A DNA stretch of 64,000 nucleotides, taken from assembly GCF_002094305.1 (NCBI RefSeq), contig NZ_LWTX01000014.1:1-64000 (forward strand). The letters run 5' to 3'. This DNA is from Prescottella equi. Its GTDB lineage: Bacteria; Actinomycetota; Actinomycetes; Mycobacteriales; Mycobacteriaceae. The position numbers were made by a program, and so were the translations under genes. Below the pieces are notes generated by a model that saw only the letters and a list, made by a program, of their open reading frames with translations, was not told the origin of the DNA and did not search any database. Positions 36,281 to 40,455 of the stretch are shown piece by piece. Each line of letters opens with the position of its first letter. The first letter of the stretch is position 1.

Positions 36281-39253
36281 GTGGCGGATCGCCTGATCGT
36301 GCAAGGTGCGCGGGAGCACAATCTGCGAGGGATCAATCTCGATCTGCCCCGGGACAGCCTGATCGTCTTCACCGGGCTGTCCGGCTCCGGAAAGTCCAGC
36401 CTCGCGTTCGACACCATCTTCGCGGAGGGGCAGCGGCGCTACGTCGAGTCGCTGTCGGCGTACGCGCGGCAGTTCCTCGGCCAGATGGACAAGCCCGACG
36501 TCGACTTCATCGAGGGTCTGTCGCCCGCGGTGTCGATCGACCAGAAGTCCACCAACCGCAATCCGCGCTCGACAGTGGGCACCATCACCGAGGTGTACGA
36601 CTACCTGCGCCTGCTGTATGCGCGTGCGGGCACGGCCCACTGCCCGGTGTGCGGCGAGCAGATCGCACGCCAGACGCCGCAGCAGATCGTCGACCAGGTG
36701 CTCGACATGGAGGAGGGAACCAAGTTCCAGGTCCTCGCACCCGTCGTCCGGACACGCAAGGGCGAGTTCGTCGATCTGTTCGAGCAGCTCAACACACAGG
36801 GCTACTCGCGCGTGCGCGTGGACGGTGTGATCCACCAGCTCACCGATCCGCCCAAGTTGAAGAAGCAGGAGAAGCACGACATCGAGGTGGTCGTCGACCG
36901 TCTCACCGTCAAGGCGAGCGCGAAGCAGCGGCTCACCGACTCCGTCGAGACGGCACTGCGTCTGGCCGACGGGATCGTCGTGCTGGACTTCGTCGATCGC
37001 GACGAGGACGCTCCCGACCGGGAGCGGCGGTTCTCCGAGAAGTTGGCGTGCCCCAACGCGCATCCGCTGTCGATCGACGACCTCGAGCCGCGGTCCTTCT
37101 CGTTCAACTCTCCGTACGGCGCCTGCCCCGAGTGCACCGGTCTCGGCATCCGCAAGGAGGTCGACCCCGACCTGGTCGTGCCGGACCCCGAACTGAGCCT
37201 CGAGGACGGCGCCATCGCCCCGTGGTCGATGGGCCAGAGCTCGGAGTACTTCGGGCGCTTGCTGTCCGGCCTGGGCGACATCATGGGCTTCGACATGGCC
37301 ACGCCGTGGAACAAGCTGCCCGCCAAGGCGCGCCGCGCGATCCTCGAGGGCAGCACCGAACAGGTCCACGTCCGGTACAAGAACCGCTACGGACGCACCC
37401 GCTCCTACTACGCCGAGTTCGAAGGCGTCATGCCGTTCCTGCACCGTCGGCTCGAGCAGACCGAGTCCGAGCAGATGAAGGAGCGCTACGACGGCTACAT
37501 GCGCGACGTCCCGTGCCCCGCGTGTGACGGCGCCCGCCTGCGGCCCGAGATCCTCTCGGTCACCATCTCCTCCGAGACCTACGGTCAGAAGTCGATCGCG
37601 CAGGTCTGTGAGCTCTCGATCGCCGAGTGCTCGGCGTTCCTCAACAGCCTCACGCTGGGCGCCCGCGAGGAAGCGATCGCGGGCCAGGTCCTCAAGGAGG
37701 TGCAGGCGCGCCTGGGCTTCCTGCTCGACGTCGGGCTCGAATACCTGTCGTTGGCGCGTGCCGCGGGCACCCTGTCGGGCGGTGAGGCCCAGCGCATCCG
37801 GCTCGCCACCCAGATCGGGTCCGGGCTCGTCGGCGTGCTGTACGTGCTCGACGAGCCGTCCATCGGCCTGCACCAGCGCGACAATCGTCGTCTCATCGAG
37901 ACGCTCACCCGGCTGCGGGACCTCGGCAACACCTTGATCGTCGTCGAGCACGACGAGGACACCATCCGGACCTCGGACTGGGTCGTCGACATCGGCCCCC
38001 TCGCGGGTGAGCACGGCGGTCGGGTGGTGCACAGCGGTACGTACAAGGAACTTCTCGGCAACACGGAGTCCCTCACGGGCGCGTACCTGTCCGGCCGCAG
38101 TGTGATCGAGGTGCCGGCCGAGCGGCGTGCGGTGGACCGCAAGCGGCAGATCACTGTCGTCGGCGCCCGGGAGAACAACCTTGCGGGTATCGACGTCAGC
38201 TTCCCGCTCGGCGTCCTCACCTCCGTCACGGGCGTGTCCGGCTCCGGCAAGTCGACATTGGTGAACGACATCCTGGCCACCGTGATGGCGAACAAGCTCA
38301 ACGGCGCACGGCAGGTGCCGGGTCGGCACACCCGCATCAACGGCCTCGATCAACTCGACAAGCTGGTTCAGGTGGACCAGTCGCCGATCGGGCGGACCCC
38401 GCGGTCGAACGCGGCCACCTACACCGGTGTCTTCGACAAGATCCGGACGCTGTTCGCCGCGACCACCGAGGCCAAGGTCCGTGGATATCAGCCGGGACGA
38501 TTCTCGTTCAACGTCAAGGGCGGTCGCTGCGAGGCGTGCTCCGGTGACGGCACCTTGAAGATCGAGATGAACTTCCTGCCGGACGTCTATGTGCCGTGCG
38601 AGGTCTGTCACGGCGCCCGCTACAACCGCGAGACGCTCGAGGTGCACTACAAGGGCAAGACCATCGCCGAGGTGCTCGACATGCCGATCGAGGAGGCCGC
38701 CGAGTTCTTCGAGCCCGTCACCTCGATCCACCGGTACCTCAAGACCCTCGTCGAGGTGGGCCTCGGCTACGTCCGGTTGGGCCAGCCGGCGCCCACGCTC
38801 TCGGGTGGTGAGGCGCAGCGGGTCAAGCTGGCGGCGGAACTCCAGAAGCGGTCCACCGGGCGCACGGTCTACGTGCTCGACGAGCCCACGACCGGTCTGC
38901 ACTTCGAGGACATCCGGAAGCTGCTGAAGGTCGTCAACGGTCTCGTCGACAAGGGCAACACCGTGATCGTCATCGAGCACAACCTCGATGTGATCAAGAC
39001 GTCCGACTGGGTGATCGACATGGGGCCCGAGGGCGGCTCCGGTGGCGGCACCGTGGTGGCCGAGGGAACTCCGGAAGACGTCGCGGCCGTGCCGGGCAGC
39101 TACACCGGGCGGTTCCTGGAGGAAGTGCTGTCCGCGCCGCCGGCGACGAACGGAGCAGCGCCCCGGAAGTCCGGAGTGAACAAGGCGTCCGGAGCGACCA
39201 AAGCCAAGGCCGCGCCGCGAAAGCGTGCGCGGAAGGCCGCGACGGTCGGCTGA
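36281..39253 (+). CDS. uvrA: excinuclease ABC subunit A
   Basis: A 990-residue UvrA, the damage-recognition ATPase of nucleotide excision repair. It has two ABC modules: Walker [10 protein letters not shown] (about 32-40) and GVSGSGKST (about 650), signatures [12 protein letters not shown] and [12 protein letters not shown], and zinc-binding cysteine pairs including [10 protein letters not shown] and [11 protein letters not shown] with [10 protein letters not shown]. The last about 35 residues form a Lys/Ala-rich tail not needed for the fold. GTG 36281 follows GAGAAGGGA. A perfect hairpin terminator follows. Confidence 0.97.
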
Positions 39254-39281
39254 CCGAAGCCTGTCGACTCAGAACGAGCGA

Positions 39282-39315
39282 ACGGCGGTGGGAAACCGAG
39301 GTTTCCCACCGCCGT
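39282..39315. terminator. uvrA terminator
   Basis: Fifteen-base perfect arms (39282-39296 and 39301-39315) with a CGAG loop, between uvrA and the convergent first micro-protein gene, so it may serve both. Confidence 0.85.
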
Positions 39316-39335
39316 CAAGCTGTCAGCGGACCGAA

Positions 39336-39458
39336 TCAGGACGGCTGCTGCTGCTCGGACGAACCGCCGAGCAGCGAGCCCAGCAGTGCGGTGATGTCGA
39401 GGTCACCGCTGCTCAGCGCGCTGATGAGGCCCGGAAGAATTTCGCTGATCGATCCCAT
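39336..39458 (-). CDS. 40-residue micro-protein A, paralog of B
   Basis: ATG 39458 follows a strong AAGGAGAG ribosome site and opens a 40-codon frame ending at the TGA at 39336. The peptide begins MGSISEILPGL, has GDLDITALLGSLL in the middle, and ends EQQQPS. It is amphipathic and acidic, with no signal peptide. About 63% of residues are identical to the second micro-protein encoded 350 nt upstream, and the conserved positions are spread over the length, which shows that the frame is real. Family unknown; short channel peptides (corynebacterial PorA/PorH type) or a small regulatory peptide are possibilities only. Confidence 0.75.
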   Translation of the reverse strand: MGSISEILPGLISALSSGDLDITALLGSLLGGSSEQQQPS

Positions 39459-39512
39459 GTATCTCTCCTTCGAATCGGTCCTTCGGGGGGGAAGGTCCAG
39501 GTGGGGGTATGC

Positions 39513-39526
39513 GTGATCTGGATCAC
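39513..39526. promoter_or_regulatory. CRP/GlxR-like site in leader of micro-protein A
   Basis: GTGATCTGGATCAC matches the GTGA-N6-TCAC core exactly. The corresponding place before micro-protein B (39987-40000) reads GTGATCTGAACCAC, with one changed base. Both lie after the candidate -10, which would suit repression. Confidence 0.4.
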
Positions 39527-39760
39527 TTTCCGATCACGCGACGGTGACGCTACCAACACGGCGGGGTGATTCGGGGCGCTTTTCGCAAACTTGTTTTCCG
39601 TCATCGAACGCGGAGTTTGTGCAGGCCAGCGTGGAAGTCGGACATCTGTCCAGAAACTGCCTGGTGGCGGCCCTGTGGGCGCGCGGGACGCGGCGTTCGG
39701 CGGCGGAAGCAAAGTTCGGGCGCGCAAGTGGGACTCGGGGGTCCTCCGGGCAAAAGAAAC

Positions 39761-39789
39761 GGCGGCGGGGGCTGATTGCCCCCGCCGCC
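39761..39789 (-). terminator. terminator of micro-protein B
   Basis: Twelve-base perfect arms (39761-39772, 39778-39789) with a 5-nt loop; on the minus strand it is followed by GTTTCTTTTG. Confidence 0.85.
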
Positions 39790-39805
39790 GGAAAGTTCCC
39801 GGACC

Positions 39806-39937
39806 TTACTGGCCGCCGCCGCCCTGCTGCTGCTCGGCGGAGCCGGCGAGGAGCTGGGTGAGCAGTGCGGTGATGTCGATGTCACCGTTGGTGATGGCGC
39901 CGAGCAAGCCGCTGAAGATGTCGCCGATCGATCCCAT
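39806..39937 (-). CDS. 43-residue micro-protein B, paralog of A
   Basis: ATG 39937 follows AAGGAGAACG and opens a 43-codon frame ending in TAA at 39806. It begins MGSIGDIFSGL, contains GDIDITALLTQLL, and ends EQQQ plus a Gly-rich tail. It shares the MGSI start, GDxDITALL core and EQQQ segment with micro-protein A. A strong intrinsic terminator follows, so it is a complete transcription unit. No cysteines, no signal peptide, net negative. Function unknown. Confidence 0.78.
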   Translation of the reverse strand: MGSIGDIFSGLLGAITNGDIDITALLTQLLAGSAEQQQGGGGQ

Positions 39938-40077
39938 TCGTTCTCCTTAGGTCGTCCCCGGGTGAGGACTCTGGTGGGGGAGTTGCGTGATCTGAACCAC
40001 GCGAAGGGGACGCTACCAATGTGACGAGTGTGGCGCGAGGGGAATCAGTGCATCGGGTTTGCCGGCTTTGCCGCTGA

Positions 40078-40455
40078 TCAGTAGACCGGGCCGGTGTACT
40101 TCTCGCCGGGGCCCTTGCCGGGCTCGTCGGGGTGGGCCGATGTCTCACGGAAGGCGCGCTGCAGGGCCTGGAGTCCCTCGCGGATCGGACCGGCGTGCGG
40201 ACCGAGGTATTCGACGGAGGCGGTGACCAGCCCGGCGAGCGCAGTGATCACGCGGCGCGCTTCGTCCAGATCCAGGTTGGGGCTGGTCTCCGGGTTCTCG
40301 TCGGACAGGCCCAGCTTCTCGGCGGCCGAGCTCATCAGCATGACGGCGGCGCGGCTGATCACCTCGATGGCGGGAACATCCGCGAGCTCGCGGATGTCGT
40401 CGAGGTCGTCCTCGGCGTGCTGAACGGCTTCGGCCGGGTCGGGATTCTGCGTCAT
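40078..40455 (-). CDS. DUF1844-domain protein
   Basis: A 125-residue protein with the DUF1844 core ISRAAVMLMSSAAEKLGL (about 34-51) followed by LDEARRVITALAGL. The N-terminus is acidic and the C-terminal tail is Gly/Pro-rich. Function is not known; actinobacterial members often lie next to infC, as here, divergently. ATG 40455 has no strong ribosome site. The 140 nt between it and micro-protein B hold only that gene's leader. Confidence 0.78.
   Translation of the reverse strand: MTQNPDPAEAVQHAEDDLDDIRELADVPAIEVISRAAVMLMSSAAEKLGLSDENPETSPNLDLDEARRVITALAGLVTASVEYLGPHAGPIREGLQALQRAFRETSAHPDEPGKGPGEKYTGPVY

Follow-up and report, generated by a model that had tools for sequence, protein, structure and literature searches.

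The stretch of DNA analysed here (the window) covers 64,000 nt of Prescottella equi and carries, between uvrA and a gene for a DUF1844 protein, two short tandem genes encoding peptides of 40 residues (copy 1) and 43 residues (copy 2), both of which begin with MGSI (Table 1). A first-pass annotation of the sequence had proposed both frames, and both were recovered at the same positions; we can add that they lie on the minus strand and point towards uvrA, with which they are convergent. The similarity of the two products that had been noticed there holds, with 24 of 38 aligned residues identical, and a search of the same genome with copy 1 (E ≤ 1) returned copy 2 as its sole other match (E 1.6e-9). 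Neither peptide contains Lys or Arg, each has a net charge of -4 and, judged by eye, neither has a basic residue at the N-terminus or a signal-like start.

Table 1. Genes and leader features at the uvrA/DUF1844 locus (positions in the window).
Feature	Position	Strand	Basis or remark
Copy 1, gene for 40-residue MGSI peptide	39336..39458	-	Frame, own-genome search, 8/14 genus genomes, codon changes
Copy 2, gene for 43-residue MGSI peptide	39806..39937	-	Frame, genus search, codon changes
DUF1844 gene, flank of the conserved slot	40078..40455	-	Upstream neighbour of the pair
Ribosome site AAGGAG, copy 1	39465..39470	-	Invariant in 11 leaders
Ribosome site AAGGAG, copy 2	39943..39948	-	Invariant in 11 leaders
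TTGGTAGCGT, extended -10 promoter-like element, copy 1	39547..39556	-	Conserved among leaders
TTGGTAGCGT, extended -10 promoter-like element, copy 2	40010..40019	-	Conserved among leaders
Leader hairpin 1 / GTGA-N6-TCAC palindrome, copy 1	39511..39539	-	Leader fold
Leader hairpin 1 / palindrome, copy 2	39985..40002	-	Leader fold
Leader hairpin 2 before ribosome site, copy 1	39476..39499	-	Fold; covariation among leaders
Leader hairpin 2, copy 2	39952..39971	-	Covariation; minimum-energy fold of this leader pairs differently
Terminator-like hairpin 3' of copy 2, tail T-rich	39760..39790	-	13-bp G+C stem
Long hairpin between ends of copy 1 and uvrA	39282..39315	.	By eye

Both leaders run through one series of blocks: TTGGTAGCGT, then a palindrome of the GATCACGCA type, a C-run, a hairpin and finally AAGGAG. 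Since they align block by block, it is the whole units that were duplicated, as had been suggested. The ribosome sites, which had been called near-ideal, read AAGGAG and stand 6 nt before the ATG in copy 1 and 5 nt before it in copy 2. The promoter-like element TTGGTAGCGT is present in 9 of 11 aligned leaders, the G173 leader having TTGTGTAGCGT and the G118 leader the second half alone, and the motif TTGnTAnnGT occurs twice in the 64-kb window, once at each copy. A simple sigma-70 scan found no promoter at the pair, so the assignment of this element as a -10 rests on its conservation. Hairpin 1 is part of the minimum-energy fold in 9 of the 11 leaders (it is absent from G130 and G142) and hairpin 2 in 10 of them, the exception being copy 2 of the window; the z-scores of the leader folds range from +0.1 (G130) to -4.1. 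The arms of hairpin 2 covary, with 84% of cells pairing versus 66% when the 3' arms are redealt and none of 5000 redealings as good, a result softened by the hand-picked arms and the relatedness of the leaders. The palindrome could serve as an RNA stem or as a CRP/GlxR-like operator; GTGA-N6-TCAC fits what we take to be the CRP/GlxR motif in several leaders, not in those of G173, G118 and G130. As for the intrinsic terminator that had been assigned to copy 2, a G+C stem with a T-rich tail is indeed present, but a terminator scan found one terminator-like site versus 0.8 in shuffles and is therefore, taken alone, no evidence. The long hairpin between copy 1 and uvrA, by eye without a clear T-run, is probably a transcription end common to the two genes, and several homologues also appear by eye to have a similar hairpin 3' of the gene.

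A comparison of silent with replacement changes in related genomes, which had been proposed as a check on the frames, shows few replacements in copy 1. Between G000 and G009, the most changed orthologue pair, copy 1 differs by 11 silent codons and 1 replacement codon (dN 0.012, dS 0.50), the differences falling 0, 1 and 11 times on the three codon positions; 8 silent and 2 replacement codons separate G000 from G039, and 4 and 1 separate G039 from G009. Purifying selection is less clear-cut on copy 2, for which G000 and G039 differ by 4 silent and 2 replacement codons (dN 0.024, dS 0.20) and G000 and G009 by 8 and 9 (dN 0.18, dS 0.39). The family does diverge, replacements being common when the two copies, or distant homologues, are compared (dN up to 0.54), while the start, ribosome site and frame are maintained. 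A search with the A2 profile found homologues in 8 of the 14 genus genomes, all with E ≤ 3.1e-10; three of these genomes have two copies and the other five a single one. Met1, Gly2, Ser3, Gly18, Asp21, Leu29, Ser33 and Gln36 are invariant in ten aligned sequences; the G173 and G118 homologues are shorter, and in the alignment G173 is without nine residues of the first half. Since selection acts on the frame and the genus conserves it, the pair is beyond chance, and both frames are very likely real protein genes.

The window family itself was not found outside the R. equi-group genus in a search of 301 genomes of the taxonomic family. The A2 profile reached 34 of the 301 at E ≤ 0.1, but the 26 further genomes had E values of 0.006-0.1, the matches listed for them lie in open frames of 89-906 residues, and they were rejected. 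We also dropped a P0002 match outside the genus (G254, E 0.007), which lies in a 484-residue frame, and did not count as homologues the P0001 matches in G058 and G183 (E 0.66 and 0.92). Pfam gave no match for either window peptide, PADLOC none, and a PDB search with the family profile returned weak matches alone (best E 0.53). In the literature searched, which included few subscription journals, nothing turned up that describes such peptides from Rhodococcus, Nocardia or R. equi-group bacteria. Together with NCBIfam (see below), these searches agree with the earlier impression that the pattern belongs to no described family.

When residues 3-31 are treated as one helix at 100 degrees, only 3-6 of 2000 shuffles are as amphipathic as the two window peptides, and five of eight homologues reach the same level (≤ 6 of 2000). 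The G142 homologue is weaker (51 of 2000) and has a net charge of 0, and the same single-helix test shows no amphipathicity for the G173 and G118 homologues, which are shorter. With the codon changes and the occurrence in the genus, the result for the window peptides supports the first-pass view of a real family of small amphipathic peptides. A potential turn is formed by Ser16-Ser17-Gly18 in copy 1, where copy 2 has Thr16-Asn17-Gly18. In both peptides the Gln tail is preceded by a Gly/Ser stretch that contains the invariant Ser33; the sequence is compatible with one continuous helix or with two helices joined by a turn.

The place of the genes is more widely conserved in the genus than the family. 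We located DUF1844 in all 14 genomes and examined as much as 1500 nt beyond it; in 12 of them, one to three small signal-less peptides led by a ribosome site lie between DUF1844 and uvrA. (The slot of G183 was placed by the coordinates of its MGS-pattern sites and DUF1844, and the G163 gene, at the edge of its stretch, is known from the profile search and leader alignment.) In G058 and G153 the slot contains three peptides, two of them an MGSL pair unrelated in sequence and the third with an FGS end; G183 shows the two MGSL starts at the corresponding position, and the G075 peptide behind DUF1844 (L112) has LGSLTSLL repeats and no MGS start, with the same promoter-like motif. In the form TTGn(n)TAnnGT, this motif accompanies 17 of 18 slot peptides. 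The presence of unrelated peptides in one slot indicates that the place is conserved while the peptides change. The two smallest genomes, G091 and G105, have no slot peptide, the stop codons lying 72 and 36 nt apart, and apart from the peptide genes we saw nothing conserved in the slots that were read. Four slot frames had been dropped because they were Arg-rich or lay on the opposite strand to uvrA.

Small genes of this architecture are not confined to the slot. The pattern AGGAG-N4-9-ATGGGNTCNNTN, a ribosome site then ATGGGNTC, has 66 sites in the 14 genus genomes versus 1 for the reversed pattern. Six are in the genome of the window, namely the pair itself and four sites on contig C2, three of which are clustered; such clusters include signal-less neighbours, not selected by the pattern, that start with MSS, MTS or MDFGS. 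Across the taxonomic family 152 of 301 genomes have a site, chance sites included, and tandem MGS pairs occur in genus g22 and MGS-MTS-MGS triplets in g21 and g23; many single matches in other genera start long proteins and were set aside. An order-wide control of 170 genomes outside the family gave 125 sites by hand count, or 0.74 per genome and at most 3. Within this one family, then, MGS peptides are concentrated in particular genera, and the class reaches beyond the genus of the window.

From the MGS loci examined we took 105 distinct short peptides and removed 4 that were Arg-rich. The remaining 101 are 25-65 residues long (median 39) and entirely free of Cys, with charges from -8 to +1 (81 are net negative) and with Leu, Gly, Ala and Ser making up about half of the residues. 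An internal GS followed by a hydrophobic residue occurs in 68 of the 101 versus 21 in shuffles, a count in which related sequences are not independent. The promoter-like motif stands 60-140 nt upstream of 22 of 117 MGS genes versus 0.2 in shuffles, counted over 300 nt upstream of each gene with operon-internal genes included. The window pair shares the features of the class (MGS after a ribosome site, 25-65 residues, no Cys, charge ≤ +1), a membership that is partly circular because the class is defined by the MGS pattern; likewise, the hhalign probabilities of 52, 55 and 33 between the window family and A5, A6 and A7 are carried by the class-selected N-terminus. NCBIfam recognised none of 20 MGS-class peptides, giving one weak unrelated match, and the peptides apparently form an undescribed class of tiny proteins.

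Some of these peptides are encoded beside a mycoloyltransferase. The contig C2 cluster (L083:5186-8160, about 99186-102160 of the contig) encodes six signal-less small peptides, and its MGS genes flank a PF00756 protein (secreted by eye) downstream of a WS/DGAT acyltransferase; the cluster is conserved in part within the genus and in other genera. A PF00756 protein adjoins an MGS pair in four g22 loci as well, with WS/DGAT next to it in both loci where the neighbour was tested. A7, the second gene of the enzyme-linked MGS pair, was found in 40 of the 301 family genomes, from five genera; among the 23 whose A7 loci were examined (10 of g1, 11 of g22 and 2 of g23), 22 have a mycoloyltransferase in the flank, and the one miss, G165, is an incomplete locus. 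The best solved match of the own-cluster enzyme is Cmt1/MytC of C. glutamicum (E 1.3e-49), with PS1 close (1.1e-44), and that of the g22 enzyme is Cmt1 (E 5.8e-69 versus 5.6e-43 for PS1); matches to antigen 85 are at about 1e-25 and 1e-33, respectively. The genome of the window has 15 PF00756 matches, and its closest Cmt1 homologue (L206, E 2e-80) is not the cluster enzyme. On contig C5 (L205:2390-2530), a 46-residue MGSS peptide with a GS-repeat end, found without the MGS filter, is convergent with a second mycoloyltransferase-type gene and lies about 70 nt beyond the end of that gene; in this check small peptides of the MGS kind stood beside 2 of the 15 PF00756 loci. No mycoloyltransferase was found in the 64-kb window, and the other MGS loci examined away from the cluster (L084, L086-L090, L092-L094, L096-L101) gave no match to the enzyme; overall, 41 of 194 loci examined gave an enzyme match, and most of the 41 are either A7 loci or duplicate, overlapping stretches of one cluster. 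We infer a link between the window pair and the enzyme-linked pair from their common architecture, promoter type and genome rather than from proven homology.

Small signal-less proteins that are substrates of such an enzyme have been described in corynebacteria. PorA (45 residues) and PorH (57 residues) of C. glutamicum are reported to lack a signal sequence (PMC11927696), and their O-mycoloylation is reported to require MytC, that is, Cmt1 (PMC11927696, PMC11066868, PMC5310785). According to one of these reports MytC mycoloylates PorA directly, at a Ser15 that a model puts in the linker between two helices (PMC11927696), and the mycoloylated serines are described as lying among Gly, Ala and Ser with no strict motif (PMC11927696, PMC11066868, PMC5310785). 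PorACj, of 40 residues, is reported to form channels by itself, for which an amphipathic helix and an oligomeric pore were proposed (PMC3792995). Orthologues of mytC are listed in Nocardia, Gordonia and Rhodococcus, not all of them active in C. glutamicum, and protein mycoloylation outside Corynebacterium was stated to be an open question in 2017 (PMC5310785).

The window pair resembles PorA/PorH, compared here by description, in that the genes are small and adjacent, the products have no signal sequence and fall, at 40 and 43 residues, within the size expected of small porins (about 40-57 residues), and the genome encodes a Cmt1/MytC homologue; it differs in its genomic place, MGS start, Gln-rich tail and acidic charge. 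The amphipathicity of residues 3-31 in the two window peptides, the turn at residues 16-18 and the Gly/Ser stretch around Ser33 would also suit such a comparison. With PorACj of Corynebacterium jeikeium (NF038022) it shares length, a small single polypeptide and a predicted amphipathic helix. However, the gene for PorACj lies between groEL2 and the polyphosphate kinase gene, a location of PorA/PorH-type genes where the window pair, between uvrA and DUF1844, is not found, and PorACj is anion-selective whereas the window peptides are acidic. Comparison at the sequence level was through NCBIfam alone: the PorACj_fam profile scored copy 2 at 12.4 bits (residues 3-16) against a cut-off of 28, did not match copy 1, and matched nothing in a search of the same genome at E ≤ 1. 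Given the acidic charge, the MGS start, the place and the lack of a significant profile match, the analogy should be read as 'works like PorA/PorH', not as 'a PorA'. MspA-like channels (PF09203), cell-wall channels of the same kind of bacteria, are reported in some Rhodococcus species (PMC9233653), so a role as small porins is perhaps unneeded there; they differ from the window peptides, which have no PF09203 match, in having 540-702-bp genes with signal peptides and products of about 200 residues.

We consider it likely that the window peptides are mycomembrane peptides. The fuller proposal, that they are signal-less, helical, O-mycoloylated, pore- or coat-forming and PorA/PorH-like as a whole, has in our judgement about an even chance of being right. 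The pair would then share the fate of the enzyme-linked MGS peptides: it would be exported by the route used by corynebacterial PorA/PorH, anchored through O-mycoloylation of serine by a Cmt1/MytC-type mycoloyltransferase, and assembled into homo- or hetero-oligomers as small helical pores or a lipopeptide coat. Serines that could carry the mycolate are Ser3 and Ser33, both invariant, and in copy 1 also Ser16/Ser17, which fall in its Gly-Asp turn. The membrane-active or channel-forming role that had been suggested at first is plausible by this analogy, the route being via PorA/PorH-like mycomembrane peptides, while the toxin- or signal-like role offered alongside it found no support in this analysis.

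Other explanations deserve consideration. The peptides might be mycomembrane lipopeptides that form no pore, acting in a surface coat or in adhesion and diversified by phage pressure, after the manner of C. glutamicum ProtX, which by description is very small, predicted to be helical, O-mycoloylated and of little-known function, and to which a phage of this species is reported probably to bind as its receptor (PMC9671496). The unrelated peptides in the uvrA slot of different species are what one would expect of a fast-changing surface part, but copy 1 is under purifying selection between close species, and we regard this explanation as rather unlikely, if worth keeping in view. We hold it still less probable that the peptides act in the plasma membrane or cytoplasm, as micro-proteins regulating a membrane enzyme or transporter or as a type I toxin. 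Micro-proteins of this kind are common in bacteria, and short, hydrophobic, tandem intergenic peptides with structured leaders would suit them; however, the window peptides have no Lys or Arg, inspection of their sequences shows no long uncharged stretch that could span a membrane, and their class is enriched in some genera and partly tied to an envelope acyltransferase.

Leaderless tandem paralogues of about 40 residues also resemble the leaderless two-peptide bacteriocins, and a pair of secreted bacteriocins or lytic peptides could look like this. Leaderless bacteriocins are usually cationic, though, and both window peptides are acidic; with no other conserved gene in the slot and no Pfam or PADLOC match, this is a very improbable account. 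That the frames are accidental, within conserved leaders or small RNAs, we think barely conceivable. The leaders do fold, and hairpin 2 covaries, but the changes in copy 1 fall at third codon positions, and the start, ribosome site and frame are conserved despite sequence divergence. Rfam moreover gave nothing above threshold at the pair: at gathering, the whole window has one tRNA, elsewhere, and positions 39200-40200 have a single match far below the gathering score (17.8 versus 40 bits).

Beyond this locus, the MGS peptides offer candidate small channels or surface peptides for the mycomembrane. More tentatively, and with somewhat less than even confidence, we suggest that outside Corynebacterium they are the protein substrates still missing for MytC-type mycoloyltransferases and belong to a large, overlooked signal-less mycomembrane lipopeptide proteome, found in the R. 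equi group and in genera related to it. The N-terminal M-[GTS]-S-hydrophobic stretch would then mark these peptides in common for targeting or modification, and the slot beside uvrA would be a fast-changing cassette of them. A set of tiny genes with one pair beside the enzyme makes mycoloylation outside Corynebacterium directly testable.

Some MGS loci have further peculiarities of arrangement or composition. L183 (G041:C1, about 3183300-3185200) has six tandem MGS[IV] genes spaced by about 370 nt, at least five of which are 31-residue copies. In L093:2571-2744 (G142), the second half of an MGSI peptide is a run of Gly-Gly-Leu-Gly repeats, and L153 (genus g4) and L170 (genus g21) have three or four small genes in a row with MGS and MTS starts.
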